64,000 bases of DNA from Tepidiforma bonchosmolovskayae (GCF_008838325.1 NZ_CP042829.1:1302001-1366000), one strand, 5' to 3'. Positions 2,953-46,224 are shown, counted from the stretch's first letter. Numbers and translations are program-made. Notes: a model not told the origin generated them from the sequence alone.

Positions 2953-3044
2953 CCGGCGCCCCGCCCGGCGCGCCCGTCATCCGGCTGTCATGCGCTGTTG
3001 ACGAACTGTTCATCCACACGCCCCCGCACATGTGGTACAACTAC

Positions 3045-3209
3045 GGGTGCCGAATCGGCGGAACTGCCGCCGAGCGGGGGACCCGTCTCCACTGGGGTGT
3101 ATCCCGGCTCCGGCCGGGTAGGCGACTCCCCTCGCCGAACCCGTCAGCTAACCCCGCAGGCGTAGTGGGAGAGGCCCGGCAGCCCTCCAGCCTGCCGCAC
3201 GTGCCTCTC
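3045..3209 (+). ncRNA. Cyclic di-AMP riboswitch (ydaO/yuaA type)
   Basis: The class hallmarks appear in order: GCGGGGGACCC (from 3074), ACTGGGGTGTATCCC, CTCGCCGAACCCGTCAGCTA and ACCCCGCAGGCG, then GGGAGAGGC. GAGAGGC (3169-3175) can pair with GCCTCTC (3203-3209), a feature shared with the second copy at 38067. Known members sense c-di-AMP and usually switch off genes for cell-wall turnover or K+/osmolyte handling. A GC-rich hairpin around 3236-3254 could be the expression platform. The next gene is the 58-residue zinc-ribbon ORF at 3290. The rest of the 337-nt gap (2953-3289) holds only a possible promoter (TACAAC at 3036-3041). Confidence 0.9.
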
Positions 3210-4562: not shown

Positions 4563-5324
4563 ATGCCCGAAACCCGCCGCTCCGGCCTCCGCATCCACTA
4601 CCGCGTCGAAGGGCGCGGCGCCCCGGTCGTCCTCGTCCACGGCTACACGGCGAGCGGCTGGGCGAACTGGATCGCCGCCGGCTGGGCCGAGCGGCTCGCC
4701 GGCCACCACACGCTGATCATCCCCGACCTCCGGGGCCACGGCCGGAGCGAGAAGCCGCACGCCGTCGAAGCCTACAGCCGGCAGGCGCTCGCCGCGGATG
4801 TCCTGGCCGTCATGGACGAAGAGGGCATCGAAACCGCCCCGGTGGTCGGCTACTCCATGGGCGGGATGGTCGCACTCGAACTGCTCGGCCGGCACGGGAA
4901 GCGGTTCCCCCGCGGCATCGTCGGCGGCATGGGGAGCTACTTCCCGCGGGGCCGGGGCCGCTTCGCCTTCGAACGGCGGCACCCGCGCAGCCTCGCGCCG
5001 CGCCGCCGCCTGCTCGATGTCCTCGCCTACCTCGCCCGCTACTGGAGCGAGATGGACCTCGTCGCCCTCAACCGGGTGTTCCGGGGCGTCTTTGCCGACG
5101 GCGTCCCCGTCGAGGCGGAGCTGCTGCCCGCCATCCGGCAGCCGGTGCTCGTCGCTGCCGGCACGCGCGATGTTTTCTTCGAGCCGGCCGTCGCCCTTGC
5201 CCGGTCGCTCCCGAACGCCCGCTTCCTGCCCGTCCCCCACGATGCGCATGTGAGCGCAGTGCGGAATCCGCGGTTCATCGAGGCGGCCGCCGCTTTCCTC
5301 CGCGGTGAGACGGCGCCGCGGTAG
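4563..5324 (+). CDS. Alpha/beta hydrolase
   Basis: A 253-residue soluble alpha/beta-hydrolase-fold protein. It has the oxyanion-hole motif LVHGYTASG, the DLRGHGRS strand, the nucleophile elbow GYSMGG with Ser98, the acid Asp203 in AGTRDVFF, and His226 or His229 in HDAHVSAV. The ATG at 4563 is preceded by a weak GAGGA and a TACGAT box at 4548-4553. The substrate cannot be told from sequence. Related proteins are esterases or hydrolases of cyclic or lactone substrates. It is convergent with the DUF2231 gene, which ends at the next base. Confidence 0.85.
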   Translation: MPETRRSGLRIHYRVEGRGAPVVLVHGYTASGWANWIAAGWAERLAGHHTLIIPDLRGHGRSEKPHAVEAYSRQALAADVLAVMDEEGIETAPVVGYSMGGMVALELLGRHGKRFPRGIVGGMGSYFPRGRGRFAFERRHPRSLAPRRRLLDVLAYLARYWSEMDLVALNRVFRGVFADGVPVEAELLPAIRQPVLVAAGTRDVFFEPAVALARSLPNARFLPVPHDAHVSAVRNPRFIEAAAAFLRGETAPR

Positions 5325-5831
5325 CTATCCGCCGTGCACGAAATTGCCGACGTCCTTCCAGACGAGCTGGGCCCCGGAGTGGCCGGCGACCGTCATCACG
5401 GCCGTGGCAATCGCTGCGACGGCGAGCACGGCAGCCCAGGCCGCCAGCGGCGCCCAGCGCGGCAGCTCCCGCTTCCGCTCCAGCCAGGCCAGCACGGCGA
5501 ACCCGATGAGCGCCGCCCCGAGGAGCATGGCCCAGAAGAATGCCGCGTCGCCCTGCTCCGGGTGGTCGCCGAACCGGGCGCGCTGGCCGACCGCCTTCGC
5601 CGCGTCCTTGACCCGGTCTTCGATGGCCTCGCCGCTCGCCTTCGCTGCCCAGGCGAACACGGCCCCGGCGACGCCGATGAGCGCCACCGGGATGGCGTAG
5701 GAGCGCCGCCAGGCCGGCCGCCAGCCCGTCACGGCGTGGGCGACGGCCGCCAGCGGCACAAGGACGACGGCCGCGTGCACGAGCAGCGGGTGGCCCGGCA
5801 GGCCGGCAATCGAACTGAACGCAAGGAACAT
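5325..5831 (-). CDS. DUF2231-type integral membrane protein
   Basis: A 168-residue protein with four hydrophobic segments, starting MFLAFSSIAGLPGHPLLVHA. The GLPGHPLLVHAAVVLVPLA motif is characteristic of the DUF2231 family, whose paired histidines suggest metal or heme contact. No function is established. The ATG at 5831 is fixed by GGAGGTTGCAG just upstream on the minus strand, so longer ORFs starting near 5912 are not used. It abuts the hydrolase stop codon tail to tail. Confidence 0.8.
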   Translation of the reverse strand: MFLAFSSIAGLPGHPLLVHAAVVLVPLAAVAHAVTGWRPAWRRSYAIPVALIGVAGAVFAWAAKASGEAIEDRVKDAAKAVGQRARFGDHPEQGDAAFFWAMLLGAALIGFAVLAWLERKRELPRWAPLAAWAAVLAVAAIATAVMTVAGHSGAQLVWKDVGNFVHGG

Positions 5832-6055
5832 CTGCAACCTCCAGGTGCCCCCGTGTGATGCTGTCCCCGCCGCAGTGTGGCGCGCCCGCAGCCTCCGCGG
5901 AAGGCGGCGCAAGGCAGTCCATCTTTACCCTGCAGGGGCAGCCGAACCCGGCGGATGCGCCGGTGCGAACAGGCAGGACCGCGCCGCTCGACACGGCCGC
6001 CAGCGCCGGCGCACAATCGGCGCCGAGCCCGTTCGCGCACTGGAGGTCCCGCGCC

Positions 6056-7258
6056 ATGGAGTTCCGCGATTCGCCCGCCGAGGCCGCCTTCCGGCAGGAA
6101 GTGCGCGCCTTCCTCGATGCCGAATTCCCGCCTGAGTTCGCCGAGCGGCCGGTCGAATGGGGGCTCTTCAACGGCGCCGGGCGCGCCGTGCCCGGGTTCG
6201 CCGAGTTCATGCGCGAGTGGACAAAGAAGCTGAACGCCCGCGGCTGGGGCGCCCCCGCCTGGCCGAAGGAGCACGGCGGCGGCGGGCTCTCCGTCAAGGA
6301 GCAGTTCATCCTCAGCGAGGAGTTCGCCTGGCGGCGCGCCCCGCGGCCCGGCGGCATCGGCCACGGCTGGGCCGGGCCCACCATCATGGTCTACGGCACC
6401 GAAGAGCAGAAGCGCGAATACCTCCCGAAGATCATCTCGGGCGAGCATATCTGGTGCCAGCTCTTCTCCGAGCCCGGCGCCGGCTCCGACCTCGCCTCGC
6501 TCCAGACCCGCGCCGTGCGCGACGGCGACGACTACGTCATCAACGGCCAGAAGATCTGGACCTCCGGCGCGCAGCACGCCCACATGGGCATCCTCCTCGC
6601 GCGGACCAACCCCGACGCGCCCAAGCACCGCGGCATCAGCTACTTCCTCGTCGACATGAAGACGCCCGGCATCACCGTCCGGCCGCTCGTCAACATGCTG
6701 AACAGCCACGAGTTCAACGAGGTCTTCTTCGAGGATGTCCGCGTGCCGGCGAAGAACCTCCTCGGCGAGGAGAACCGGGGGTGGTACCTCGCCACCACGA
6801 CGCTCGATTTCGAACGGAGCGGCATCGCCACCAGCGTCTCCCACCAGCTGATCGTGCGCGACCTCGTCCGGTTCGCGAAGGAGTCCCCGGTTGGTAGCCG
6901 CAGCGTAGCCACACGGCCCTCGATCCGCACCGAGCTGGCCGACCGCGCCATCGAGGCGCAGGTCGAATCGCTCATCTCCTACCGGATCATCTCGATGCAG
7001 GAGCGCGGCCAGATTCCGAACAAGGAATCATCGATCGCGAAGCTGTACTCGAGCGAACTCGATGTACGCCTGGCCGTGACAGCCATGCACCTCGCCGGCC
7101 TCTACGGGCAGATCACCGACCGCGAGGATGCGCGCGTCCTCGGCGGGCGGATCGCCCGGTTCTACATGCACAGCACCACGAGCCCGATCGGCGGCGGGAC
7201 GAGCGAAATCCAGCGGAACATCATCGCCACCCGCGGGCTCGGGCTGCCGCGCGGCTGA
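6056..7258 (+). CDS. Acyl-CoA dehydrogenase family protein
   Basis: A 400-residue FAD enzyme of the acyl-CoA dehydrogenase superfamily. N-terminal helices (residues 1-120) lead to the flavin-contacting beta domain (QLFSEPGAGSDLASLQTRA, then VINGQKIWTSGAQHA). The C-terminal helical domain ends with SPIGGGTSEIQRNIIATRGLGLPR. Members oxidise acyl-CoA thioesters to trans-2-enoyl-CoA and pass electrons to ETF. The exact chain length or branched substrate is not evident. The start is set by GGAGG 9 nt upstream of ATG 6056. The 224-nt upstream gap holds a CACAAT box near 6013 but no clear -35. Confidence 0.9.
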   Translation: MEFRDSPAEAAFRQEVRAFLDAEFPPEFAERPVEWGLFNGAGRAVPGFAEFMREWTKKLNARGWGAPAWPKEHGGGGLSVKEQFILSEEFAWRRAPRPGGIGHGWAGPTIMVYGTEEQKREYLPKIISGEHIWCQLFSEPGAGSDLASLQTRAVRDGDDYVINGQKIWTSGAQHAHMGILLARTNPDAPKHRGISYFLVDMKTPGITVRPLVNMLNSHEFNEVFFEDVRVPAKNLLGEENRGWYLATTTLDFERSGIATSVSHQLIVRDLVRFAKESPVGSRSVATRPSIRTELADRAIEAQVESLISYRIISMQERGQIPNKESSIAKLYSSELDVRLAVTAMHLAGLYGQITDREDARVLGGRIARFYMHSTTSPIGGGTSEIQRNIIATRGLGLPRG

Positions 7259-7263
7259 GCCGC

Positions 7264-7761
7264 CTAGCCGGCGCGGCGGAGCTGGCCCTGCAGCCAGGCG
7301 ATATCGGCCCGGAGGTGGGCCGCCTCCCGCTCCTCGAGCGCGGCCCGGGGGCCCGCGGCGCCTGCGCGCAGCCCCCGCTCGAGCGCCGTCAGCCGGCGCG
7401 CGGCGGCCGCCATCCGCTCGCGGAGCACCTCCGTGAGCCCCGGCGCCGCGATGGCGCCCCCCGCGGCAAGGGCCAGCGCGAAGGCCGGACCATCGACCGG
7501 TTCGCGCCGCAGCGTGCGCAGGGCCGCCCGGGCGAGCTGCTCCCGGCCGGCGCCGGTCAGCTCGAGCCGCTTCCGGCGGTGGCCGGTTTCCCCGGTTTCG
7601 AGCTGCACGGCGACAAACCCGTCCCGTTCGAGCGCATCGACGGCGCGGTAGAGCGCGCTCCGGCTCACCGGCAGGCCGAGCCCGGAGAGGTGGTCGAGCA
7701 GGGCGTACGGGTGGGCAGGCGAGAGGGCGAGGGCGGCGAGTACGGCGAAGCTGGCATCCAT
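7264..7761 (-). CDS. PadR-family transcriptional regulator
   Basis: A 165-residue protein with an N-terminal winged helix (residues 1-75: ALALSPAHPYALLDHLSGLGLPVSRSALYRAVDALERDGFV, with the basic wing TGHRRKRLELT). A helical, Ala/Arg-rich C-terminal domain would form the PadR-s2 dimerisation coil (about 110-163). PadR proteins usually repress a nearby transporter or stress gene in response to small ligands. The structured spacer directly upstream (7762-8074) is the likely place for its own operator. It is convergent with the acyl-CoA dehydrogenase gene. Confidence 0.85.
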   Translation of the reverse strand: MDASFAVLAALALSPAHPYALLDHLSGLGLPVSRSALYRAVDALERDGFVAVQLETGETGHRRKRLELTGAGREQLARAALRTLRREPVDGPAFALALAAGGAIAAPGLTEVLRERMAAAARRLTALERGLRAGAAGPRAALEEREAAHLRADIAWLQGQLRRAG

Positions 7762-8074
7762 GGCCGCGATCCTGCCCGGTCTGCGTCTCGGGGACGTATC
7801 GGGGATTCGCCCGATTCCGTCCTGCCGGCACGCCCAATTCGGCCCGCCCGCGCCGCCGATCCTCCCCCGCGGGAGCTGCTCCCGCCCGGGAAGGTCCCTC
7901 CCGGGCGTGCCGGTCCGGCAGGGGAACGGCCCGCCGGCCCACGCCGGGGAGCGGCCTCCCCCGCACCCGGTTATCGAACCGGAACTTGACCGCCCCGGTG
8001 GAGAGTTGGTGACCGGCGTGCGGAGGCGTCAGCGGCGACAGGGCCCGTCGGCCGAACCTGCTACCGTGGGATCC
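7762..8074. other. 313-nt gene-free spacer with five consecutive perfect hairpins
   Basis: No supported ORF lies here. Between 7870 and 7982 five inverted repeats follow one another: GCGGGAGC/GCTCCCGC (7870-7886), CCCGGGA/TCCCGGG (7886-7906), GCCGG/CCGGC (about 7910-7920), GGGGAG/CTCCCC (7946-7961) and CCGGTT/AACCGG (7967-7982). Loops are 1-7 nt. Strand and function are unknown. It may be a structured RNA, a regulatory leader of PadR or of the small gene at 8075, or a mobile palindromic element. It does not match a riboswitch class I recognise. Confidence 0.5.
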
Positions 8075-8359
8075 GTGGATACCCGTTTCAGCTCCCCGCC
8101 CGACCTGACCGTTGTCTGCGCCTGGTGCGAGGCCGTCGTGCGCAGCGGCGCCGCCGGGCCGGTCTCCCACGGCATCTGCCGGGAGTGCGCGCGCAGCTTC
8201 CTCGAGCGGCTCCCCTTCGCCTACCTCGAAGCGATCGCCGATGACGACGGCACCGTCACGCTCCTCTCGGGCTACCGGTTCCCGCTCGCGGAGGTCCGGC
8301 AGGACGGCTCGCCGCCCCGCCTGCCCGGGTTTCCCACGGCGAAGGGCGAAGGCGGCTGA
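8075..8359 (+). CDS. Small cysteine-rich protein with CxWC and SHGIC-xx-C motif
   Basis: A 94-residue protein beginning at GTG 8075. Residues about 13-42 hold VCAWCEAVV and VSHGICRECARSFL. The pattern CxWC ... SHGICxxC also occurs as an appended zinc-binding segment in some PAS and sensory proteins, but here it stands alone. The rest is an acidic beta-rich tail (DDDGTVTLLSGYRFPLAEV). It has no signal peptide or membrane helix. A TACCGT box is close upstream. Function is unknown. A metal-binding sensory or adaptor role is a guess. Confidence 0.6.
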   Translation: MDTRFSSPPDLTVVCAWCEAVVRSGAAGPVSHGICRECARSFLERLPFAYLEAIADDDGTVTLLSGYRFPLAEVRQDGSPPRLPGFPTAKGEGG

Positions 8360-8398
8360 CGCTCGCCCCGCCGCCCCGACCGCTCGAACGAGACTCCG

Positions 8399-8674
8399 CT
8401 ATGCGGTCCGCCGGCCCAGTACCGCCCGGAGCAGCAGCAGGAAGAGGACGCCGCCGAGCACAGCGAGCGCCATGCTTCGGATGTCGAATTCGCTGACGGA
8501 GCCCCAGCCGATCGCGGTGCCGATGAACCCGCCGATGACGGCGCCGATGATGCCGATGAGGATGGTGACGACGAGTCCGCGCAGCCCTCCGCCGCCCGGG
8601 TCGTCGCCCGGGACGATCAGCTTCGCGAGCGCGCCGGCGATCAGTCCGAAGATAAGCCATGCGATGAGTCCCAT
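8399..8674 (-). CDS. GlsB/YeaQ/YmgE family small membrane protein
   Basis: A 91-residue, three-helix membrane protein starting MGLIAWLIFGLIAGALAKLI with the family PGDDPGGGGLRGL segment and IIGAVIGGFIGTAIGW. These proteins are often labelled transglycosylase-associated, and their biochemical role is unclear. They are commonly linked to envelope stress. The ATG at 8674 follows GGGAG on the minus strand. Insertions after the last membrane helix end in an Arg-rich tail. Confidence 0.85.
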   Translation of the reverse strand: MGLIAWLIFGLIAGALAKLIVPGDDPGGGGLRGLVVTILIGIIGAVIGGFIGTAIGWGSVSEFDIRSMALAVLGGVLFLLLLRAVLGRRTA

Positions 8675-8942
8675 GGTCTGCTCCCGTGCGGAGGGCCGAC
8701 GATTTCCGAGGGTGGCCCGTCCGCTCCGCAACCTTACCCCAAATGACCGGGGCGCGTTTGCTGTCACACTGCCGGCCCGCCTGCCCTGCCCGGCGGCGGC
8801 CTGCGGAGGCAGGGTTTCCCCGCATTTTTCGCCGCCTTCACCCGCCGTTGCCGATTTGGAAACATCCGTGAGCCCGGGGCGTGGTACGGTGGCCTAAGCA
8901 CCCGGGGTGCGCAGCTGCCCCGCGGCATCCGTTGATACAGGT

Positions 8943-10262
8943 GTGGCTGATTTGCAGGTGGCGGCCTCCCGTCTCCCCGTCCCGGCGCTCGTCGCCTTCG
9001 CAGTCGCCAAGCTGACCTCGCAGGCGGCGCAGAACCTCTTCTTCGCGGCGCTGCTGGTCGCCGCCGGCACCTCCGACCACGCCGCCGCCGGGCTCTCCTC
9101 CTTCTTCGTGGCCATGCTCGCCGGTTCGCTCATCTTCGGGGTCCCGGGCGGCGCCCTGGCCGACCGGATCGGCCCCTCGCGCTCCTTCGCGCTTGGCGGC
9201 ATCGGCCGGGCCGCCGTGATCCTCGCCTGGGCGCTCGAACCGGGCAGCGGGCTGCTGGTGCCGGCGGCCGTTTTCGCCTACTCCGCCGTCTCGCAGGCGT
9301 ACTCCCCGGCCGAGATGGCGCTCGTCCGCACGCTCGGCAGCGGCCGCCACGGGGCGCTGCACGCCCTGCTCCTCACCCTCCAGTTCGGCGGGCAGGGGCT
9401 GGCGGTCGCGGTGCTTGCCCCGCTCCTCTGGTGGCTCGGCGGTACGAATGCGATGGTCGCCGGGGCCGCCGTCATTGCGCTTGCGGCCGCCGCGGCAGCG
9501 TGTAGCCTCGCTGTGGCCACCTCGCGGATGCAGCTCGAATGCCCGGCCCGCGGCTCCGCCTTCCGCGATACCGTCCGCTTCTTCCGCCGCCAGGCCATCG
9601 CCCGCGAGGCGCTGATCGCCCTTGCGCTCACGTCGATGGTCGTGCAGGGCAGCATCGTCGCCCTCCCGCTCTACCTCCGGAACGACCTCGCGGCCGGCTC
9701 GCTCGGCGCCGGGGCCGTCATTGGCGCTGCCGGGCTCGGCGTCGCCGCCGGCCTCCTCCTCGCCGCCTTCCGGCTCCGCCCGCGGGCGGCGGGCGGCACG
9801 ATCCGCGCTGCCGTGCTCGCGATGGCGGTCGGCACCTTCGCGCTCGCTTCGCTCGATTACGGCCTCCGCGCCGCCCTCGAACTCACCGAGTTCGGCCCGC
9901 TCGTCGACCTCGACCTCCGCCTCGGCACCGCCTACGCGGTCGCCGTGCCCGTCGCCTTCCTCCTCGGCCTCTCCGTCTCGCTCGCGCTGCTCGCCGGCCG
10001 GACCGCGCTGACCGCCGCGGCACCCGCTGCCCACCAGTCGCGCGTCTTTGCCGTGCAGGCGACGCTCACCGACGCCTTCGTCGTGCTGCCGCTCGTCCTG
10101 TTCGGCGTCGGCGTCGAGGTGGCCGGCGCCCGGCCGGTGCTCGCGCTGATGGGCGGCGTCGCCGGGTTTGCGTTCCTCGTGCTCGAAGGGCGGATCCTGG
10201 TGTCCTGGTTCCACCCGCCGGCCGAGCCGGCTGCGGTGCCCGTGCCCGTCGAACGCGACTGA
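8943..10262 (+). CDS. Major facilitator superfamily transporter (paralogue of 38270-39598)
   Basis: About 439 residues with roughly 12 hydrophobic segments. The loop motif GGALADRIGPSRSFALGG after helix 2 fits MFS motif A, and an equivalent loop follows in the second half. It is clearly paralogous to the protein at 38270: both carry TSQxxQNxxxAALxxxAGT near the N-terminus, a TPAEL/SPAEMALVR motif and an RVFAVQxTLT motif. The start is uncertain: GTG 8907 or GTG 8943. I chose 8943 because it begins nearer the conserved part. The substrate is unknown. Unlike the paralogue, no riboswitch is seen upstream. Confidence 0.8.
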   Translation: MADLQVAASRLPVPALVAFAVAKLTSQAAQNLFFAALLVAAGTSDHAAAGLSSFFVAMLAGSLIFGVPGGALADRIGPSRSFALGGIGRAAVILAWALEPGSGLLVPAAVFAYSAVSQAYSPAEMALVRTLGSGRHGALHALLLTLQFGGQGLAVAVLAPLLWWLGGTNAMVAGAAVIALAAAAAACSLAVATSRMQLECPARGSAFRDTVRFFRRQAIAREALIALALTSMVVQGSIVALPLYLRNDLAAGSLGAGAVIGAAGLGVAAGLLLAAFRLRPRAAGGTIRAAVLAMAVGTFALASLDYGLRAALELTEFGPLVDLDLRLGTAYAVAVPVAFLLGLSVSLALLAGRTALTAAAPAAHQSRVFAVQATLTDAFVVLPLVLFGVGVEVAGARPVLALMGGVAGFAFLVLEGRILVSWFHPPAEPAAVPVPVERD

Positions 10263-13834: not shown

Positions 13835-14152
13835 ATGCCGCTGCTGCCATCGCTCACGCTCGCCGATGCGGCCGGGATCGCCGGGCTGGCGCTCTTTGCG
13901 GCCGGGGTGCTCGCTGCGCTTCGTCTCCCCGCTGCCGCTGCCGGGCGGCCCCGGCTTGAGGCTGCCGCCGCCCTCGGCTTCGTCCTCTGGGGGCTCGCCC
14001 TCTTCGCTGCCTGGTACGCCTGGAGCGCCCCCGCGCGGACGTGCGCGGTCTGCGGCGAACCGCTCACCCTCGCTGTGGAGGATGGCGGCGCCGTCCCGTT
14101 CGAGGCCGAGCAGCCCGCCGGTCTGGCGGGGCTCGATGCCCGTGCACCCTGA
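13835..14152 (+). CDS. Small membrane protein with C-terminal CxxC
   Basis: A 105-residue protein with two hydrophobic helices (about 11-32 and 45-66), followed by TCAVCGEPL and an acidic tail. The CxxC pair lies on the side after helix 2 and could bind metal or form a disulfide. The family is not recognised. A TACCAT box lies about 30 nt upstream of the ATG. The gene ends just before the promoter of the cobalamin operon, so it is probably a separate unit. Confidence 0.55.
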   Translation: MPLLPSLTLADAAGIAGLALFAAGVLAALRLPAAAAGRPRLEAAAALGFVLWGLALFAAWYAWSAPARTCAVCGEPLTLAVEDGGAVPFEAEQPAGLAGLDARAP

Positions 14153-14158
14153 GGCCGC

Positions 14159-14187
14159 TTGACGTTCGCCTGTCAAACCGCCAGATT
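14159..14187 (+). promoter_or_regulatory. Candidate promoter for the cobalamin riboswitch operon
   Basis: TTGACG (14159-14164) and CAGATT (14182-14187) are separated by 17 nt and lie just upstream of the riboswitch aptamer. This is the only AT-richer patch in the gap. The -10 match is imperfect. Confidence 0.4.
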
Positions 14188-14199
14188 GCATTTCGACAA

Positions 14200-14330
14200 T
14201 CGAAGACCGGGAGGGCCCTTCCGCCGCCAGCCGTGCGGGAGGAGCCGGGGCAAGTCCGGTGCGAATCCGGCGCTGTGCCGCAACTGTGAGGCCGAACGGC
14301 CGAGCCAGAAAACCCGCCCAACCGGACCGA
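14200..14330 (+). ncRNA. Cobalamin riboswitch
   Basis: The conserved core is plain: GTCCGGTGCGAATCCGGCGC (14254-14273), then TGCCGCAACTGTGAGGCCG, and the B12 box GAGCCAGAAAACCCGCC (14302-14318). The class binds adenosyl- or methylcobalamin and lowers expression when B12 is plentiful. A strong terminator 47 nt after the aptamer (14377-14401) indicates control by transcription termination. It governs the operon from 14489 to 19953, which fits the predicted B12 uptake role. With promoter and terminator it accounts for the 336-nt gap 14153-14488. Confidence 0.95.
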
Positions 14331-14376
14331 TGATCCTTCGCGCGAAAGGGGTCGGTGCCATGGTTCTCGCCACCTG

Positions 14377-14401
14377 AGCCCGCCGCCGCGGCGGGCTTTT
14401 T
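14377..14401 (+). terminator. Rho-independent terminator of the cobalamin riboswitch
   Basis: A perfect 9-bp stem AGCCCGCCG/CGGCGGGCT (14377-14385 and 14389-14397) with a 3-nt loop runs into TTTTT. It lies between aptamer and first gene, so it is the likely off-state structure. Confidence 0.85.
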
Positions 14402-14488
14402 CGTTACTTCCCGCCTGCCCGGCATGTCTGTCCTGCCGCTGCGGCGCCTCCCGCGCCGCCCCGCTTCACCCTGCTCCAAGGAGTCCCC

Positions 14489-15610
14489 ATGAAACGGCTT
14501 GTCCTCGCCTTCGCCGCGGCCCTCGCCGTCCTCCCGGCTGCCGCATTCGCCGCGCTTCCCGCCACCGACGCCGTCATCAAGGGCGCGGCCTTCATCAAGA
14601 CGGTCCAGCGCTCCGACGGCAGCTACGCCGAGTCGCCCGGGCAGTCCATCGATGCCATCATCGCCGTCCGCGCCGCCGGCTACGACCCGCGCCTCGATGT
14701 GAAGGACGGCAAGTCGCCGGTCGACTGGCTCACGGCCGCCGCTCCGTCGATCACCTCTCCGGTGTCGGCCGCCAAGGCGGCGCTCGGCGCCAAAGCGCTC
14801 GGCCTCGACCCAAAGAACGTCGGCGGCGTGAACCTCATCGCCGTCGCCCAGGGCGGCTACAAGGCGGACACCGGCGCCTACGCCGATAACGCCTTCAGCC
14901 AGTCGATCGCCATCCTCGGCCTGGCCTGCACCGGCAACACCGTCGGCGCGAAGGCGGCCGACAACCTGAAGGCGCTCGCCGTCCAGGGCGGCGGCTGGGG
15001 CTTCGGCGGCAACGCCGACCCCGATACGACCGCGATCGCCATCCAGGCCCTCCTCGCGGCCGGCGTCCCGAAGACCGACGAGAAGGTCGCCCAGGGCCTC
15101 GCCTGGCTGAAGGCGAACCAGGGCAGCGACGGCGGCTGGGGCTACGACCCGAATGATTCGAACACCTCGTCGACCGCCTTCGCCATCCAGGCGCTCCTCG
15201 CCCTCGGCGAGAACCCCGAAGCGGCGGCCTACACGAAGAACGGCGTGACGCCCGTCCAGTACCTCCTCAGCAAGCAGCTGCCGGACGGCTCCTTCGTCGG
15301 CTACGACCCCGCCTTCGCGGCGAACCAGGTCGTCCCGGCGCTCGCGGGCCGCACCTTCTGCAACGCGCCGGAGACGCCGATTACCCGCACCCGGCCGGCC
15401 GCCCAGCCGACGCCGACCCCGCAGCCGACGACTCCGGCCGCCTCGCCGACGCCGCGCGCCACCACCCCGGCGCCGCGGCCGCCGGCCACCGGCGATACCG
15501 CCGCCGCCCAGCCGGGCAGCCCCGCGCCGCTGCTTGCCGCCGGCGGGCTGCTGCTCCTCGCCCTCGGCGGCGCGGCTGCTGCCGCCGCAGCCCGGCGCGC
15601 CCGCGCCTGA
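14489..15610 (+). CDS. Secreted alpha/alpha-barrel protein like the alpha domain of intrinsic factor, membrane anchored
   Basis: A 373-residue protein with a signal peptide (1-21, MKRLVLAFAAALAVLPAAAFA). Prenyltransferase/squalene-cyclase-type helical repeats cover about 22-290: SDGSYAE, GGGWGFGGNADPDTTAIAIQALLAAG, SDGGWGYDPNDSNTSSTAFAIQALLALG and LPDGSFVGYDP. The repeat region ends QVVPALAGRTF, a place equivalent to the end of the alpha domain in transcobalamin-family proteins. A Pro/Thr linker and C-terminal helix with an Arg tail (about 345-373) anchor it. SD AAGGAG precedes the ATG. As first gene behind a B12 riboswitch, it is predicted to capture cobalamin outside the cell with the beta-domain protein at 18282. 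Confidence 0.75.
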   Translation: MKRLVLAFAAALAVLPAAAFAALPATDAVIKGAAFIKTVQRSDGSYAESPGQSIDAIIAVRAAGYDPRLDVKDGKSPVDWLTAAAPSITSPVSAAKAALGAKALGLDPKNVGGVNLIAVAQGGYKADTGAYADNAFSQSIAILGLACTGNTVGAKAADNLKALAVQGGGWGFGGNADPDTTAIAIQALLAAGVPKTDEKVAQGLAWLKANQGSDGGWGYDPNDSNTSSTAFAIQALLALGENPEAAAYTKNGVTPVQYLLSKQLPDGSFVGYDPAFAANQVVPALAGRTFCNAPETPITRTRPAAQPTPTPQPTTPAASPTPRATTPAPRPPATGDTAAAQPGSPAPLLAAGGLLLLALGGAAAAAAARRARA

Positions 15611-15619
15611 GCCCCTCGC

Positions 15620-16705
15620 GTGCACCCGGCGAGCTGGATCGGCTGGGTTCTTGCGGTGATGGTGGTGGCCCTCGCCACCACCAACCCGTTCTACCTGTCG
15701 CTCCTCCTGCTCGCCGTGGTGCTCGTGGCGGTCCTCGCCCCGCGCGAGGGCGCCGGCGTGGTGAGCTTCCGCGCCCTCGCCGTCTTCGGCGTGGTGATGT
15801 TCGCGCTCTCCCTCGGCATCGCCGCCATCAACGGCAACTACGGCGACCACATCCTCTTCACCCTGCCCGGCCCGCGCGTGCCCGAGTGGCTCGGCGGGCT
15901 GCGGCTCGGCGGGCCGGTCTCGGCCGAAGGCTTCGCCGCCGCGGCCATCCGCGGGCTCGCCATCCTCTGCATCCTGTTCGCCTACGGCGTCTTCAACGGC
16001 GCCGTGAGCCCCCACCGGGTGCTCCGCTCCACGCCGGCCGCGCTCTTCCAGGCGAGCCTGGTCGTGACGGTCGGCCTCACACTGCTTCCCTCGAGCGTGG
16101 AGGACCTCCGCCGCGTGCGGGAGATGCGGGCCCTCCGCGGCGCACCCGGCGGCCTGCGCGAACTGCCCGCGCTCGTCGTGCCGGCCATCGTCGGCGGCCT
16201 CGAGCGCTCGCTGCGGCTGGCCGAGGCGATGGAGGCCCGCGGCTACGGCGCCAGCCCGCCGCTCCCGGCGCGGGCCCGGCTCGCCGCTGCCGCCTCGGCT
16301 CCCCTCCTCATCGCCGCCGCCTGGCTCTGGTTCTACGAGGCGGACTGGCGCATCCCGGCCCTCGGGCTTTTCGGCGCTGCGCTGGCGCTCCTCGCGCTCT
16401 GGTGGCGGGCCGCCAGCCGTGTACGCCCGGTCACCCGCTTCGAACAGGAGCGCCTGCCGGCCGCCGAGCGGGCAGGGCTCGCCGTGGCCGCGGCCCTCGC
16501 CGTGGGCGCGCTCGGCCTGCGCCTCACCGGCGCCGGCGCCATGGACTACAACCCCTTCGCCGGGCTCCCGGTGCCGGGCTTCGAACTCCTCCCCGCGCTC
16601 ATCGCCGTCGCCAGCGCCTGGCCGGCGGTCCTCCTCATCGCCCGGCCCGCGCCTGCCCCCGCCGCCTCGCCCGAGGCGCGGCTCGCCCCGGAGCGCGCCC
16701 CATGA
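15620..16705 (+). CDS. ecfT: ECF transporter transmembrane component EcfT
   Basis: A 361-residue integral membrane protein starting at GTG 15620. It has the N-terminal NPFYLSLLLLAVVLV helix typical of CbiQ/EcfT proteins, several more helices, and the coupling helices EMRALRGAPGG and EAMEARGYGAS. The latter is the Ala-Arg-Gly motif that contacts the ATPase grooves. It is longer than usual (family about 250-270) because two or three extra hydrophobic segments follow near residues 275-345. Its stop overlaps the ATPase start as ATGA. It links the S component to ATP hydrolysis. Confidence 0.85.
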   Translation: MHPASWIGWVLAVMVVALATTNPFYLSLLLLAVVLVAVLAPREGAGVVSFRALAVFGVVMFALSLGIAAINGNYGDHILFTLPGPRVPEWLGGLRLGGPVSAEGFAAAAIRGLAILCILFAYGVFNGAVSPHRVLRSTPAALFQASLVVTVGLTLLPSSVEDLRRVREMRALRGAPGGLRELPALVVPAIVGGLERSLRLAEAMEARGYGASPPLPARARLAAAASAPLLIAAAWLWFYEADWRIPALGLFGAALALLALWWRAASRVRPVTRFEQERLPAAERAGLAVAAALAVGALGLRLTGAGAMDYNPFAGLPVPGFELLPALIAVASAWPAVLLIARPAPAPAASPEARLAPERAP

Positions 16706-18294
16706 CGGCGCTGGCCAGCCTCCAGGGCGTCACCTACACCTACCCGGGCGCGCCCGGCCCCGCGCTCGAGGATGCCGCGCTCGACCTCGAACCGGGCGCC
16801 TTCGCCCTCGTTGCCGGCCCCTCTGCGAGCGGCAAATCGACGCTCCTCCGCGTCTTCAACGGCCTCGTCCCCCAGTTCCACGGCGGAACCATCTCCGGCA
16901 GCGCCCGCGTGGCCGGGCTCGACCCCTTCGCCACGCCCGCCCGCCGGATGGCCCTCGCCGTCGGCATGGTCTTCCAGGAGCCGGAGGCCCAGGCCGTGGC
17001 CGAAACCGTCCAGGACGAAATCGTCTTCGGCATGGAGCAGCAGGCCGTCCCGCCCGCCGAGATGCGCCGCCGCCTCGAACGGGTGCTCGCCGAGCTCGGC
17101 ATCGGCCACCTCCGCGGGCGGCGGCTCGCGACCCTCTCCGGCGGCGAACGCCAGCGGGTCGCCATCGCCGCTGTCCTCGCGCTCGAACCGCAGCTCCTCG
17201 TGCTCGACGAACCGACCTCCCAGCTCGACGGCGACGGCGCCGATGCCGTCCTCGCCGCGGTCGAGGCCCTCCACCGCCGGGGCGACCTCGCCATCATCCT
17301 CGCCGAGCACCGGCTCGAACGGCTGCTCCACCGGGTCGATGCCGTTGTCGCCGTTGAGGGCGGCCGGGTGGCTGCCGCGCCGCCGGGCGAAGCGGCGCAG
17401 ACGCTCCGCTCGGTGCCGCCGGCCGTCGAACTCGCCCGCCGGCTCGGGGCCGACCCCGTCCCGCTGACGGTCGACGGGGTGCGCGCCGCCCTCGCCGGGC
17501 GGCTCCCGGCAGCCAGTTCGCGGGTGCACCCCTCGCCGGGCGAGGAGCTGCTCCGCGCCGAGGGGCTGACCGTCGCCTACGGGCCGGTCGAGGCGCTCCG
17601 CGGCGTTTCGCTCAGCCTGCGCGAAGGGGAGCTGGTCGCGCTCGTCGGGCCGAACGGCAGCGGCAAGACGACCCTCTTCCGCGCGCTGACGGGGCTGGTC
17701 GAACCGGCCCGCGGCGGGGTCCGGTTCGGCCGGGCGCCGGCGCCCCGCTCGCCGCGGGAGCGGACCCGCCACGCCGGCCTCGTCCCGCAGGACCCGGCGC
17801 TCGCGCTCTACCAGGAGCAGGTGGCCGCCGAGCTCGCCGAGACCCTCCGCCACCGCGGCCTCCCCCGCGGGCGCGCCGAGATCGAGGCCGCCGCCCGGGC
17901 CTGGGGCATCGCCGACCTCCTCGGCCGCGACCCGCGCGACCTCTCCGTCGGCCAGCAGCAGCGGGTCGCCATCGCCGCGATGCTCGCCCACGGGCCGCGC
18001 ACCTGGTTGATGGACGAACCGACCCGCGGCATGGACGGCCCGGCGAAGGCCTGGCTCGCCGCCCGCCTGCGCGACCACGCTGCCGCCGGCGGCGCGGCCA
18101 TCGTCGCCACCCACGACATCGAAGCAGCCGCGCTCTTCGCCACCCGCGTCATCGGGCTCCGCGCCGGCGAGGTCGTCTTCGACCTGCCCGCGCGGGAGGC
18201 GTTCGCGGCCGACGGCCCCCTGCCGACCCAGGTCGCCCGGCTCGTGCCCGGTGCCGTCACCCTCGATGAGGTGGTGCTCCCGTGCGCCGCCTGA
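16702..18294 (+). CDS. Fused ECF transporter ATPases (EcfA-EcfA')
   Basis: A 530-residue protein with two complete ABC ATPase domains. Domain 1 has Walker A GPSASGKST (39-47), the signature LSGGERQRVAIAAVL, and Walker B LLVLDEPTSQLD. Domain 2, from about residue 290, has GPNGSGKTT, LSVGQQQRVAIAAML and WLMDEPTRGMD. Both carry a downstream switch His (AEHRLERL and ATHDIEAA). Most ECF systems encode the two ATPases separately. Here they are fused, as in several Actinobacteria and Chloroflexota. It energises the vitamin uptake complex with EcfT and the S component. Confidence 0.9.
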   Translation: MTALASLQGVTYTYPGAPGPALEDAALDLEPGAFALVAGPSASGKSTLLRVFNGLVPQFHGGTISGSARVAGLDPFATPARRMALAVGMVFQEPEAQAVAETVQDEIVFGMEQQAVPPAEMRRRLERVLAELGIGHLRGRRLATLSGGERQRVAIAAVLALEPQLLVLDEPTSQLDGDGADAVLAAVEALHRRGDLAIILAEHRLERLLHRVDAVVAVEGGRVAAAPPGEAAQTLRSVPPAVELARRLGADPVPLTVDGVRAALAGRLPAASSRVHPSPGEELLRAEGLTVAYGPVEALRGVSLSLREGELVALVGPNGSGKTTLFRALTGLVEPARGGVRFGRAPAPRSPRERTRHAGLVPQDPALALYQEQVAAELAETLRHRGLPRGRAEIEAAARAWGIADLLGRDPRDLSVGQQQRVAIAAMLAHGPRTWLMDEPTRGMDGPAKAWLAARLRDHAAAGGAAIVATHDIEAAALFATRVIGLRAGEVVFDLPAREAFAADGPLPTQVARLVPGAVTLDEVVLPCAA

Positions 18295-19112
18295 TCGCCG
18301 CGCTCGCGGCCGCCGCTGCCCTGGCGCCCTTCGCCGCCCGCGCCGACGGCGAGGCGGGGCTCGTCATCCAGGTCGGCGACCAGGTGACCACCTACTGTGT
18401 GCCGTTCACCGGCGACAGCATCTCCGGCGAGCGCCTCCTCGCGGCCAGCGGCCTGCCGATCGAGCAGTTCGGCGGCAGCTCGGGGCGCGTCGTCTGCGCC
18501 ATCGGGCAGGTCGGCTGCTTCGACCCCTCCTCGTTCGACAGCTGCTTCTGCCAGTGCAAAGGGAACGACTGCACCTACTGGGCGCTCTTTACCCGCGCCT
18601 ACGGAAAGGGCTGGGTCTACTCCTCGGTCGGGATTTCGCTCGCCCGCGCGAAGGACGGCGAGGTCCACGGCTGGAAGTGGGGCCGGGGCGGCCCCTCCAG
18701 CGCCCCGGCGCCGGCCGATATCACCTTCGAGCAGATTTGCGGCCATCCGCCCCGCGGCGGCGCTGCGCCGACGCCGCTCCCGCCGACGCCGACGCCGGCC
18801 TTCCAGCCTTCGCCGACCGCGGGCGCCGCTGCCCCGGCGAGCCCGGGGGCGGCCGCTGCCGCCAGCCCGGAAACCCCCGGCGCAACGATGACGCTCGCAC
18901 CATCCCCCGCCGCGACCGCCGCCGTCACGCTCGTCCCGCAGAGCCCGGCCGCGGCCTCGCCCGCCGCCCCGGGGCCGGCCCCGGCCGCCGTCGATGACCG
19001 CGGTGACGGCGGGAGCGCGGCCGCCCGCCTCGCCGCGTTCGCCATCCTCGCCGGGGCGCTGCTGGCCGCGATCGGCGGGGCCGCAGCCTGGAGGGCGCGC
19101 CGTGGCCGTTAG
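18282..19112 (+). CDS. Exported protein with DUF4430/transcobalamin beta-like domain, membrane anchored
   Basis: A 276-residue protein. It has a signal peptide (about 1-21), a roughly 130-residue domain, a long Pro/Ala/Thr linker (about 160-245) and a C-terminal helix with an RRGR tail. The domain includes GERLLAASGLPIEQFGG, a Cys-rich CFDPSSFDSCFCQCKGNDC stretch, TYWALFTRAYGKGWVYSSVG and DGEVHGWKWG. This order resembles DUF4430, the fold of the C-terminal beta domain of intrinsic factor and transcobalamin. The resemblance is by motif only. It overlaps the ATPase gene by 13 nt and the S-component gene by 11 nt. I predict it closes over cobalamin together with the 14489 protein. Confidence 0.65.
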   Translation: MRRLIAALAAAAALAPFAARADGEAGLVIQVGDQVTTYCVPFTGDSISGERLLAASGLPIEQFGGSSGRVVCAIGQVGCFDPSSFDSCFCQCKGNDCTYWALFTRAYGKGWVYSSVGISLARAKDGEVHGWKWGRGGPSSAPAPADITFEQICGHPPRGGAAPTPLPPTPTPAFQPSPTAGAAAPASPGAAAAASPETPGATMTLAPSPAATAAVTLVPQSPAAASPAAPGPAPAAVDDRGDGGSAAARLAAFAILAGALLAAIGGAAAWRARRGR

Positions 19113-19953
19113 CCTCCCCCTGCCGGCCCGCCAGCGCGCCGCGGCCCGCCTGGACCCGGGCGGCGTCGTCTTTGTGCTGCTCAACCTGCTCGGGCTGTTC
19201 GCCTACCTCCACCCGTTCTTCGCCCCCGGCGTCGTCGACGAGGGCACCGCCTGGTTCGCCCACCGCACCGATGCGCCGGCGGTGTTCGCCGGGATTGCGG
19301 CGCTCTGCCTCGTCCTCGTCGTTGCCGACCTTGCCGGCGGGGGGCTCGACAGCAAGCGGCTGGCCGTGCTCGGGGTGCTCTCCGCCCTCGCAGCCGTGCT
19401 CCGCACCATCACCCTGCCCGCGGGCGCGAACCTCTACTTCTTCCTCGTCATCCTCGGCGCCTTCACCTTCGGCGCCCGACTCGGCTTCCTGCTCGGCGCG
19501 CTCTCCTTCTTCCTGAGCGCCGTCGTGACCGGCGGGTTCGGCCCCTGGCTGCCGTTCCAGATGTTCGCCTCGGCCTGGATGGGCGCCAGCGCCGGGCTGG
19601 TCGGCCGGGCCGCCGACCGCGCCGGCCTCGGCCCCCGCGGCCGGCTCGCGCTCGTCATCGCGTTCGGCTCCGCCTGGGGGCTGCTCTACGGCGCGATCAC
19701 GAACCTCTGGGCCTGGCCCTGGATTGTCGCCGGCCCCGATATCTCCTACGAACCCGGCCTCGGCCCGGCCGAAACCCTCCGCCGCTACTGGAACTACTAC
19801 CTGCTCACCAGCCTCGGCTGGGACCTCTTCCGGACCCTCTGCAACGCGGTCGTGCTCGCCGCCGTCGGCGGGCCGATCCTCCGCGCGCTCCTCCGCTTCC
19901 GGGAGCGGTTCGCCTTCCAGGTCGCCGGCGTCAGGGCTGGCCCCCGCAGCTGA
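19102..19953 (+). CDS. ECF transporter S component, probably cobalamin-specific
   Basis: A 283-residue membrane protein from GTG 19102 with about six helices after a short N-terminal extension. LPAGANLYFFLVILGAFTFGARLGFLLGALSFFLSAV and GFGPWLPFQMFASAWMGASAGL match the S-component group that includes the B12 transporter CbrT. Charged helices such as an Arg in the first core helix may bind the corrin side chains. The B12 riboswitch upstream supports cobalamin as the ligand. The last 23 nt overlap the end of the convergent sigma-factor gene. Confidence 0.8.
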   Translation: MAVSLPLPARQRAAARLDPGGVVFVLLNLLGLFAYLHPFFAPGVVDEGTAWFAHRTDAPAVFAGIAALCLVLVVADLAGGGLDSKRLAVLGVLSALAAVLRTITLPAGANLYFFLVILGAFTFGARLGFLLGALSFFLSAVVTGGFGPWLPFQMFASAWMGASAGLVGRAADRAGLGPRGRLALVIAFGSAWGLLYGAITNLWAWPWIVAGPDISYEPGLGPAETLRRYWNYYLLTSLGWDLFRTLCNAVVLAAVGGPILRALLRFRERFAFQVAGVRAGPRS

Positions 19954-38053: not shown

Positions 38054-38059
38054 TATACT
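38054..38059 (+). promoter_or_regulatory. -10 element before the second c-di-AMP riboswitch
   Basis: TATACT (38054-38059) is a near-perfect -10 box eight bases upstream of the aptamer, in a region otherwise poor in A and T. No convincing -35 box is seen at 16-18 nt. TACAAC occupies the same place before the first riboswitch (3036-3041). Confidence 0.6.
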
Positions 38060-38066
38060 GTGCGAA

Positions 38067-38212
38067 GCCGAATCTCCGCCCACGCGGAGAGCGGGGGACC
38101 CAACGCACGGGGTGAATCGCGCGCGAGCGCGTAGGCAACTCCCAATGCCGAACCCGTCAGCTAACCTCGCAGGCTCTTGGGAGAGACGCGGAAGCTGCAC
38201 GTCCCGTCTCTC
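38067..38212 (+). ncRNA. Cyclic di-AMP riboswitch (second copy)
   Basis: Motifs GAGCGGGGGACCC, ACGGGGTGAATCGCG, ATGCCGAACCCGTCAGCTA and ACCTCGCAGGC, then TTGGGAGAGACG, match the ydaO/yuaA class. GAGAGACG (38181-38188) pairs with CGTCTCTC (38205-38212), as in the first copy. It lies between ileS and an MFS transporter gene at 38270. The likely effect is c-di-AMP control of transporter expression. The remaining bases of the 296-nt gap hold the -10 box and a short leader. Confidence 0.92.
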
Positions 38213-42862: not shown

Positions 42863-44230
42863 ATGCCCGATTCCGTCGAACCTCGCCCGATGGTGCTCCG
42901 CACCTTCCGCGTGCGCACCAGCAATCACGTTGGGGTCCTCGCCCGCGTCCTCGGCATCCTCGCCGAGCACGGCGCCTCGATCGGCGACCTCCGCACGGTG
43001 TTCATGGGCCCCCTCAGCCGCGTCCGCGATATCGAAATCGGATTCGCCGATGCCGATTCCATCGAGCCGGCCATCCGCGCCATCGAGGCCACCGGCGAAG
43101 CCCACGTCCTCGAAGTGCGCGACGAGGTGCTCGACCTCCACGTGGGCGGCAAGCTCGTCATCCGCGCCCGCCATCCCATCGCCACCGAGGCCGACCTCCG
43201 CCGCGTCTACACGCCCGGCGTCGGCGAGGTGGCCCGTCGCATCGCCGCGGAACCGGAGCTGGCCGACCACTACACCATGCGCGCGAGCACCGTTGCCATC
43301 GTCTCCGACGGCACCGCCATCCTCGGGCTCGGCAACCTCGGACCGCTCGCGGCCCTCCCCATCCTCGAAGGGAAGGCCGCCATCCTCGCTGAACTCGTCG
43401 ATGTGAGCTGCGTCCCGCTCGCGGCAGGGGCCGTGCCCACCGGCGACCTCGTGCAGGCCATCGCGACCCTCGCGCACGGCTTCGGGCTCGTCCTGCTCGA
43501 AGACATTGCCGCGCCGCGCTGCTTCGAGGTCGAAGCCGGCCTCCGGGCCGCCGGTATCCCCGTCTTCCACGATGACCAGCACGGCACCGCCGCCGTCGTC
43601 CTTGCCGCCGTCATCGGCGCTGCCGGGCTGGCCGGGCTCGACCTCGCCCGCTGCCGGGTCGGCTGCGTCGGGCTTGGCGCCGCGGGCACAGCGATCGCCC
43701 GCGCACTCATGGACTACCTCGGCCGGCCCGTGTTCGGTGCCGACCTCGACCCGGCCGCCATCGAACGCTTCCGCGCTTCCGGCGGCGAACCCTCGGACCT
43801 CGCCGCGATCATGGCCACCTGCGACCTCGTCGTGGCGACAACGGGCCGCCCCGGCCTCATCGAACCGGCCATGGTTCGCCGCGGGCAGGTGATCCTCGCC
43901 CTCTCGAACCCCGTGCCCGAGATTGAGCGCGATGCCGCGATGGCCGCCGGAGCTGCGCTGGCCACCGACGGCCGGGCAACGAACAACATGCTCGCCTTCC
44001 CCGGGCTCTGCCGCGGCGGGCTCGACGCCGGTGTCCGCGAGTTCGTTCCCGCAATCTTCCGGGCTGCCGCCGAGGCGATCGTGCAGAGCGCGCCCCGCGG
44101 GCAGCTCCTCCCGCCGCCGCTGGACCGCACCGTTCACCGGCGCGTGGCCCGGGCCGTCGCCGGCGCGGCCATCGCTGCCGGGGTCGCCACCCGCGAAGTT
44201 CCGCCCGACTACATGCTCGAAGGGCGCTGA
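42863..44230 (+). CDS. Malate dehydrogenase (decarboxylating, malic enzyme) with N-terminal ACT domain
   Basis: A 455-residue protein. Residues about 10-85 form an ACT domain (TFRVRTSNHVGVLARVLGILAEHGASIGDLRTV) that probably senses an amino acid or other small ligand. The malic enzyme core follows: RRVYTPGVGEVARRI with the catalytic Tyr, LPILEGKAAILAELVDV with the catalytic Lys, LLEDIAAPRCFEVE and VFHDDQHGTAAVVLAAV for the metal. The NAD(P) domain has VGLGAAGTAIARALM. It converts malate to pyruvate and CO2. ATG 42890 is an alternative start. The 3' end overlaps the convergent lipase gene by 22 nt. Confidence 0.9.
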   Translation: MPDSVEPRPMVLRTFRVRTSNHVGVLARVLGILAEHGASIGDLRTVFMGPLSRVRDIEIGFADADSIEPAIRAIEATGEAHVLEVRDEVLDLHVGGKLVIRARHPIATEADLRRVYTPGVGEVARRIAAEPELADHYTMRASTVAIVSDGTAILGLGNLGPLAALPILEGKAAILAELVDVSCVPLAAGAVPTGDLVQAIATLAHGFGLVLLEDIAAPRCFEVEAGLRAAGIPVFHDDQHGTAAVVLAAVIGAAGLAGLDLARCRVGCVGLGAAGTAIARALMDYLGRPVFGADLDPAAIERFRASGGEPSDLAAIMATCDLVVATTGRPGLIEPAMVRRGQVILALSNPVPEIERDAAMAAGAALATDGRATNNMLAFPGLCRGGLDAGVREFVPAIFRAAAEAIVQSAPRGQLLPPPLDRTVHRRVARAVAGAAIAAGVATREVPPDYMLEGR

Positions 44231-45375
44231 CGCCCCCGCGCGCGAGCCAGCGACGCGGTCAGGAGGCACGCAACACCGGTCAGAACCAGCATGGCTCCGA
44301 TCCCAGCCATGGCACCGCGCATGTTCCATGCGAGATGGTCCGTGGCCGGCGCGGCCGGGCCATTGCCCGTTGCCGGAGGCCTGGGTGCTGCCGGCGCATC
44401 TGCCGCAGCGTAACCGGCCAGGGCGGGCTCGGCCTTCACCTGCGGGGCGCCGAACACACGGCTCAGGGCGAGGTTACTCAGCTCGGTCGCCTTCGATTCG
44501 GCCGTGGCTCCCGAGACCCCCGGCACCAGCGTGCCGCAGACGCCCGGGGAAACGCGGCTCGCATCGGCCGGCCCCGGTCGGAGCAGTGCGTCGAGCACCA
44601 GGGCGAAGACCGCGCCGTCGGCCGGGAAGCCGATGTGCGCCAGCTGGCTCGCCGGGCAGAGCTCCTGCAGTTCGATATTGGCAACCCGCGAACCGGCGAC
44701 GGCCTTGAGCGAGGAGCGTTCCCTCGGAGGAATAACCACGCCGTCATGACGGGAGTAAATCACCGTGTAGTCGAGGCCCGCGAATGTTTCGCCACCATTG
44801 TTCACTGCTCGAATGAGCCGCGAGCCCGGGACCATCTGCCAGATGCTTGCCCCGCAGGCCCCGCTCGCCTGGCAGATCGCTGCGGCGCTATCGGCGCCGT
44901 GGTTTGCGGGTGCAAGGCCCACCACGTCTGAGACCATGGGTCGGATATCTGGCCAGTATTTCAGTGCCCAGCGGATATCAAGTCCACCCTGGCTGTAGCC
45001 AACGAGTGCGACCTGTTGGCCGGTTTTCTCATGCATCGTGCGGACCGCGTGAACGATCCGGCCGGCGGAGACCTGAATGTCGCCCATACCAAGGTCAGCC
45101 ATATCGACGGTGCACACCGCGAAGCCCTGTGCCTCAAGGGCCGGCCGGTAGCTCCAGTCCCAGTTTTCCGGGCCAGAAAGGCCGGTGCCGGGGACCAGCA
45201 GCACTGGCCAGCGGTAACTGCGCGCGAGGTTGTCGGGACAATGCAACGCTGCGGCGAGTGTCGATGCTGGCTCGGGCAGGCTCGGCCCAGGACCGTCCGC
45301 ACGCGCCGACCCGCCGGTTACGACCGCGAGGGAGAACGCCACCGCCGAAAGAAGCGGCATGAGCCAGCGTGTCAT
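44209..45375 (-). CDS. Exported lipase/esterase resembling Candida antarctica lipase B
   Basis: A 388-residue protein. A signal peptide (to about 26) precedes WPVLLVPGTGLSGPENWDWSYRPALEAQGF, the CalB-like oxyanion region. The nucleophile elbow is GYSQG with Ser128, acid Asp211 in YSRHDGVV, and His247 in LAHIGFP. Cys pairs probably form disulfides. A Pro/Ala linker and a C-terminal helix (about 360-380) anchor it. ATG 45390 is an alternative start. CalB-like lipases are best known from fungi and some Actinobacteria. Local base composition is slightly less GC-biased than its neighbours. It overlaps the malic enzyme gene tail to tail. Confidence 0.8.
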   Translation of the reverse strand: MTRWLMPLLSAVAFSLAVVTGGSARADGPGPSLPEPASTLAAALHCPDNLARSYRWPVLLVPGTGLSGPENWDWSYRPALEAQGFAVCTVDMADLGMGDIQVSAGRIVHAVRTMHEKTGQQVALVGYSQGGLDIRWALKYWPDIRPMVSDVVGLAPANHGADSAAAICQASGACGASIWQMVPGSRLIRAVNNGGETFAGLDYTVIYSRHDGVVIPPRERSSLKAVAGSRVANIELQELCPASQLAHIGFPADGAVFALVLDALLRPGPADASRVSPGVCGTLVPGVSGATAESKATELSNLALSRVFGAPQVKAEPALAGYAAADAPAAPRPPATGNGPAAPATDHLAWNMRGAMAGIGAMLVLTGVACLLTASLARARGRQRPSSM

Positions 45376-45498
45376 GCTCCGTACCCCCATGAGTTGTGCT
45401 CGAGCTGCGGCAGCGTACGCGATGGCTGGATGGGTTGCAAGCTCGCTCCCCGCGCGCATTGACCGCCCGCCTGCCGACCCCCGACGATCGAATACGAC

Positions 45499-46224
45499 AT
45501 GGTCACCGACCTCCCCGGGCACGTCGTCGAACAGCGCCGCGACGGACGCAGGACCGTCCTCCTCCACCGGGCGATGGCCGTCATCGGCGATGACCGCATC
45601 GAAATCAAGAGCGCCCGCGGCACGGTCATCCTCCCCCTCCTCGGCCTCCTCATCTCGGCCGCCATCGGCTGGCTCATGGTCGACCGCGGCCCCACCCTGC
45701 CCTTCTGGCTGCTTGTCACCCTCCTCGTCGTCCTCATCATCCTCGTGCCCGTCTCGGTCATGGGGCTCGTCGGCGCCCTCGTCGGCGCCGATGTCGTTGT
45801 CGACCGCAGGAAGGGCTCGGCCACCTGGCAGCAGGGCTACCTCGGCATGGGCATCGGCACGAAGGAGCTCGTCCCCTTCGCCAAGATCGACCACCTCGAA
45901 ATCTGCATCGAAGGCGACCAGCCCGACCGCTGGCACGACCTGCCCGATGACCTCCGCCAGTTCTCCCTTGTCCTCGTCAAGAAGAGCGGCAAGCGCCTGC
46001 CCATCTGCAACGTCCCCGTACCCGCCTACGGGCAGGAAGACGGGATGGACCGCACCCTCGCCGTCGGCCAGGCGGTCGCCGCGATGACCGGCGCCCGGCT
46101 CGACCTGCCCGAGGGGTGGGAGCTCGTCGAAATCGACCTCGAGACCGGCGAGCCGGTCATCAAACCCGAACCCGCGGGGAACCGGCCCCGCCCACGGAGG
46201 AAGCGCCATGACCGCCGCCGCTGA
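45499..46224 (+). CDS. Two-helix membrane protein, possibly PH-like
   Basis: A 241-residue protein. A short cytoplasmic N-terminal strand region leads to two adjacent membrane helices (VILPLLGLLISAAIGWLMV and FWLLVTLLVVLIILVPVSVMGLVGALVGADV). A soluble beta-rich domain follows (FAKIDHLEICIEG, FSLVLVKKSGKRLPICNVPVP), ending in a very basic tail. The layout is reminiscent of bacterial PH-domain membrane proteins, but I cannot assign a family. The end overlaps the CoA-binding gene by 17 nt, indicating co-translation. Confidence 0.6.
   Translation: MVTDLPGHVVEQRRDGRRTVLLHRAMAVIGDDRIEIKSARGTVILPLLGLLISAAIGWLMVDRGPTLPFWLLVTLLVVLIILVPVSVMGLVGALVGADVVVDRRKGSATWQQGYLGMGIGTKELVPFAKIDHLEICIEGDQPDRWHDLPDDLRQFSLVLVKKSGKRLPICNVPVPAYGQEDGMDRTLAVGQAVAAMTGARLDLPEGWELVEIDLETGEPVIKPEPAGNRPRPRRKRHDRRR

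Follow-up and report, generated by a model that had tools for sequence, protein, structure and literature searches.

How B12 might be captured at the surface of a bacterium and passed to an energy-coupling factor (ECF) transporter is the question raised by a locus in Tepidiforma (Chloroflexota; genome of 2.75 Mb), where a single operon behind a cobalamin riboswitch joins two secreted proteins to an ECF-type importer. The locus lies in a 64 kb stretch of DNA, the window, within which coordinates are counted. The operon encodes, in order, a secreted toroid (A), EcfT (T), a fused EcfA-EcfA' ATPase (AA'), a secreted cysteine-rich protein (B) and an ECF S component (S). The evidence set out below makes it probable that the operon is a B12 (cobamide) importer, in which surface capture by A and B feeds S via EcfT and the double ATPase.

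A riboswitch-controlled operon with a complete ECF transporter

A cobalamin riboswitch aptamer was detected at 14196-14335 (+) by the RF00174 model, with a score of 43.7 bits against a gathering threshold of 31.5 and a match spanning the full model (1-189). Just 3' of the aptamer, at 14376-14398 (+), lies an intrinsic terminator-like hairpin of 10 pairs, 8 of them GC, followed by a T run. This hairpin is the sole terminator-like site within 13900-14700, and is likely the off switch of the riboswitch. The aptamer is almost unchanged in three further Tepidiforma genomes, and the terminator stem is kept across four Tepidiforma leaders. The folding energy of the riboswitch region was not better than that of shuffled sequences, and the riboswitch call thus rests on the covariance-model match.

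The five open reading frames, A (14489-15610), T (15620-16705), AA' (16702-18294), B (18282-19112) and S (19102-19953), all on the plus strand, are tightly packed, with neighbouring ends that overlap or almost touch. An earlier note on this DNA had described the same five-gene order behind a cobalamin riboswitch and a full ECF transporter; all five reading frames and RF00174 were found where it had placed them, and the ECF transporter is complete, with its T, paired ATPase and S components. Curated Pfam cut-offs were passed by A, EcfA-A' and S, and missed by EcfT. B is carried by 20 of the 25 Tepidiforma-family genomes searched, the closest named relatives with such loci being T. flava and Tepidiforma sp. 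KatS3mg064, while a simple protein search found it in none of 16 genomes outside the family. The order riboswitch-A-T-AA'-B-S is kept in every family locus holding the full gene set (14/14), and is therefore not due to chance. The operon and its link to B12 are secure.

EcfT matches CbiQ (PF02361) over residues 9-211 at 17.8 bits, below the cut-off of 25, and continues past this match in a long C-terminal extension, with nine transmembrane (TM)-like segments in all. Family proteins in the same operon place are 47-94% identical to it. The two ABC domains of the fused ATPase match ABC_tran in two stretches, above cut-off (2.5e-56), and ECF_ATPase_1 (2.2e-87). The S component matches ECF_trnsprt (PF12822) above cut-off over residues 85-254 (7.9e-15), preceded by two additional N-terminal TM-like segments (19102-19350) that are present in 16/16 relatives. 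The loop between these segments contains invariant residues P38, F39, H54, D57 and P59, and may be a docking site for the capture proteins. S had been proposed to be CbrT-like, which was not borne out, as an S profile retrieved no CbrT chain from the PDB, the sole match being 4hzu_S (E 0.066).

The two secreted proteins

Protein A has a signal-like N-terminus, a toroid spanning residues ~21-300, a Pro/Thr linker and a hydrophobic C-terminal segment. The AlphaFold2 model of A, built from a three-sequence alignment, has a predicted local distance difference test score (pLDDT) of 85 and shows twelve helices arranged as an alpha6/alpha6 toroid, a fold assignment that we regard as secure. A Foldseek search returned squalene cyclases (2.8e-6), followed by transcobalamin (3.2e-5) and intrinsic factor (7.5e-5). 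With VIA-align, A superposes on human intrinsic factor (3kq4) with a Z of 20.6 over 246 residues at 3.4 Å, and on squalene-hopene cyclase with a higher Z of 23.9. Since both methods match both groups, the fold of A is common to cyclases and transcobalamins. The secreted alpha/alpha-barrel that the earlier note had described was thus recovered, and the superposition on human intrinsic factor that it had called for was obtained, although the nearest solved folds are squalene cyclases.

At the sequence level, A matches SQHop_cyclase_C in Pfam (2.5e-10) and Cobalamin_bind (PF01122; 2.7e-6), the latter with 27.0 bits, just above the cut-off of 25. PF01122 matches only 8 of 15 relatives of A. A further match is to the NCBIfam family SCO2321, with 80.3 bits and E 1.3e-22, below the curated cut-off of 300 bits. 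Squalene-hopene cyclases being its top matches in both sequence and fold, A could be read as a terpene-cyclase- or glycosidase-type enzyme that shares the operon by chance, which we consider highly improbable. The DXDD catalytic motif of the cyclases is missing at the aligned site in 15/15 family members, which have DPDTT or a similar sequence there, and this absence argues that A is not an enzyme. Also unfavourable to an enzymatic role are the apparent export and surface anchoring of A, the PF01122 match above cut-off, and the existence of proteins in which A is fused with B.

The tail of A consists of PPATG, a hydrophobic stretch and RR, and is PPxTG-like in most of the 15 relatives. It starts with P rather than the L of LPXTG and has no Pfam anchor match; five sortases are present in the host genome. 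From its sequence, the tail looks like a sortase-like signal rather than a plain membrane anchor. The proposal that A and B are each tethered by a C-terminal helix of their own therefore holds in that both have hydrophobic C-terminal segments, but for A the PPxTG-hydrophobic-basic pattern suggests a different mode of anchoring. Elsewhere in the window, a 697-residue open frame (44212-46302, -) ends in PPATGNG-hydrophobic-basic, like A, and is a possible second sortase substrate.

Protein B has a signal-like N-terminus, a cysteine-rich SCO2322/DUF4430-like domain (residues ~21-158), a Pro/Thr linker, a C-terminal TM segment (residues 250-268) and a basic tail, and contains eight cysteines. B scored 28.3 bits (E 1.9e-6) against NCBIfam SCO2322, below the curated cut-off of 85 bits, and 25 of 26 diverse B domains matched the same family at E<0.01. 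Pfam DUF4430 was absent from B and from the rest of its own genome, and a Pfam scan of the diverse B domains gave a single DUF4430 match, at E 0.17. The link between B and DUF4430 thus rests on profile comparison. A profile of the 26 B domains matched a profile of nine bacterial DUF4430 domains with a probability of 93.9 and a score of 48.0, while 298 column-shuffled decoys gave a mean score of 11.9, a maximum of 21.0 and a best probability of 4.1. The probability dropped to 78 once fused and odd rows were removed, and comparison of the B profile with fused-type DUF4430 domains alone was not significant (probability 1.1). Searching PDB sequences with the B profile gave nothing relevant. The DUF4430-like character that the earlier note had assigned to B was therefore supported by the profile-profile match, but not by Pfam. 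We read B as a distant but true relative of DUF4430 at the profile level, and likely a beta-grasp domain. By analogy, the cysteine-rich stretch of B, which lies between a predicted helix and a YWAFF strand, may occupy the position of the transcobalamin hairpin that contacts B12.

Cargo and host physiology

CbiC was not found in the host genome, which nevertheless encodes four proteins with B12-binding domains, and the host therefore probably needs outside B12. A second cobalamin riboswitch is followed by a BtuC-BtuF-BtuD-CobO-like run, together at ~5148-9100 of locus L143 (genome 2206000-2218000); in this run BtuF was assigned by Pfam and BtuC, BtuD and CobO by reading the sequence. The host thus seems to have two uptake routes for the external cobamides on which it probably relies.

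Cobalt transporters are also under cobalamin riboswitch control, EcfT weakly resembles CbiQ, and the separate BtuCFD system has its own riboswitch, all of which would fit a cargo of cobalt or of an incomplete corrinoid such as cobinamide, rather than B12. We consider such a cargo quite unlikely, though cobinamide is conceivable. The S component belongs to PF12822, not CbiM, and we know of no role for a toroid/beta-grasp pair in cobalt ECF systems. Cobalt itself would not be built into new corrins, since CbiC is missing from the genome.

Two c-di-AMP riboswitches (RF00379) also lie in the window, at 3038-3176 (+) with 82.4 bits, and at 38056-38190 (+) with 92.3 bits.

A and B as a possible two-piece B12 clamp

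The relation between A and B was followed through 28 distant Chloroflexota loci picked by SCO2322 matches. The A toroid is found at the same locus as B in 26 of these, and a cobalamin riboswitch in 18 of the 23 that were scanned. In Embleya (Actinomycetota), retrieved by a plasmid search with the fused B of locus L087, the genes form a riboswitch-A-B-T-AA'-S run; no matches came from querying plasmids with the Tepidiforma B or with a DUF4430 stretch. The two folds are separate chains in Tepidiforma, encoded by the genes starting at 14489 and 18282, as had been noted, and are fused only in relatives. A search for such fusions, suggested along with that observation, yielded A-A-B-TM as one chain in two loci (L087 and L090), with S-T-AA' next to it and a cobalamin riboswitch in front. 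A third locus (L081) has a B-A-A arrangement, and four from the same class of Chloroflexota (L094, L117, L119 and L120) encode toroid and DUF4430 in one chain; in the last three, a second, Pfam-certified DUF4430 gene directly precedes T-AA'-S. Five further loci (L084, L086, L096, L100 and L102) encode A-A double toroids per chain, and two B genes occur in some of them. The fusions are good, if indirect, evidence that A and B work together.

A two-piece clamp formed by A and B is plausible. In the proposed pathway, scarcity of B12 would let transcription continue past the terminator through the riboswitch, and A and B would be exported and remain surface-bound, the former probably through its sortase-like signal and the latter through its membrane helix. 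A and the cysteine-braced beta-grasp domain of B would then enclose B12, much as the two domains of a single transcobalamin chain do, and hand it to S, which EcfT and the double ATPase would turn over. That B12 is the ligand, that A and B close on one molecule of it, and that they dock on S, we infer from the evidence above. In its most specific form, the pair would be a heterodimeric, membrane- and wall-anchored transcobalamin that feeds the ECF transporter directly and docks via the N-terminal TM hairpin of S, a model that we put forward tentatively, at slightly less than an even chance. To our knowledge, ECF transporters are usually portrayed as having no extracellular capture proteins.

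Several observations weigh against this reading. A resembles squalene cyclases no less than transcobalamins, and the AlphaFold2 model of B, from a three-sequence alignment, is poor (pLDDT 44) and unusable for fold comparison. The host genome holds a second riboswitch-controlled system, BtuCFD. Across the phylum, CbiC is kept by 11 of 35 B-bearing genomes and by 27 of 266 others, so that dependence on uptake is not general, and B was rejected as a marker of B12 auxotrophs on the same count. In one relative (locus L144, 3788-6597), a cobalamin riboswitch precedes B without any adjoining toroid or ECF genes, Embleya holds a second, lone B, and domain numbers vary among loci, with double toroids and double B genes. 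CofD- and CofC-like (F420) genes follow the lone B of L144.

The lone B genes, the lack of a one-to-one ratio between toroid and B domains, and the operons of other Chloroflexota that pair a fused toroid+DUF4430 protein with a further separate DUF4430 protein would be accommodated if A and B both served B12 uptake without enclosing the same molecule. One protein, perhaps A, would then capture B12 while the other acts as an adaptor docking on S or the cell wall, or each would bind alone. This division of roles seems to us doubtful, since the A-A-B and toroid+DUF4430 fusions favour direct cooperation, as does the known transcobalamin sandwich, in which toroid and beta-grasp domain enclose one B12 (PMC1796856).

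Capture of this general kind has been predicted before. Burroughs, Balaji, Iyer and Aravind (2007) described bacterial transcobalamin-like SLBB beta-grasp domains, both stand-alone and joined to toroids, encoded with CbiO/CbiQ genes in low-GC Gram-positives, planctomycetes and euryarchaea, and proposed B12 scavenging (PMC1796856). The general idea of toroid and beta-grasp B12 scavengers beside CbiO/CbiQ is thus not new. Like those operons, the present one encodes a surface-exposed toroid and a beta-grasp domain (the latter by profile only) with ABC ATPase and CbiQ-like genes; unlike them, it has toroid and beta-grasp on two separately anchored chains, its B belongs to a cysteine-rich branch missed by Pfam DUF4430, and its occurrence in Chloroflexota and Actinomycetota extends beyond the listed range. 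No paper on SCO2322 or on the split form was found in a literature search that lacked most subscription journals, and the split two-chain form with a cysteine-rich, divergent beta-grasp domain looks undescribed.

The animal carriers intrinsic factor, transcobalamin and haptocorrin share with the present system the alpha6/alpha6 barrel of A and, at the profile level, the relation of B to their C-terminal domain family DUF4430, but the Tepidiforma proteins are two cell-surface chains, ECF-coupled, with eight cysteines in B and predicted B12 binding. A and B also match, below cut-off, the NCBIfam families SCO2321 and SCO2322, which have no assigned function and whose adjacent Streptomyces gene numbers mirror the shared operon. 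ECF-CbrT of Lactobacillus delbrueckii, an experimentally studied B12 ECF system (PMC5997447), is likewise an ECF-type transporter of the expected cargo, but has been described without extracellular capture proteins, and the present S has no detectable CbrT match and two extra N-terminal TM-like segments. BtuFCD likewise imports B12 by way of an extracellular binding protein, although the folds of its capture protein and membrane part are unrelated to those of the present system.

If the proposed reading is correct, Tepidiforma would possess a naturally divided transcobalamin, so that the share of each half in B12 capture could be assayed on its own. It would also have an ECF importer working with extracellular capture proteins, which have no place in the standard ECF model. 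The unnamed NCBI families SCO2321 and SCO2322 would gain a function, and the origin of the animal B12 carriers a testable picture.

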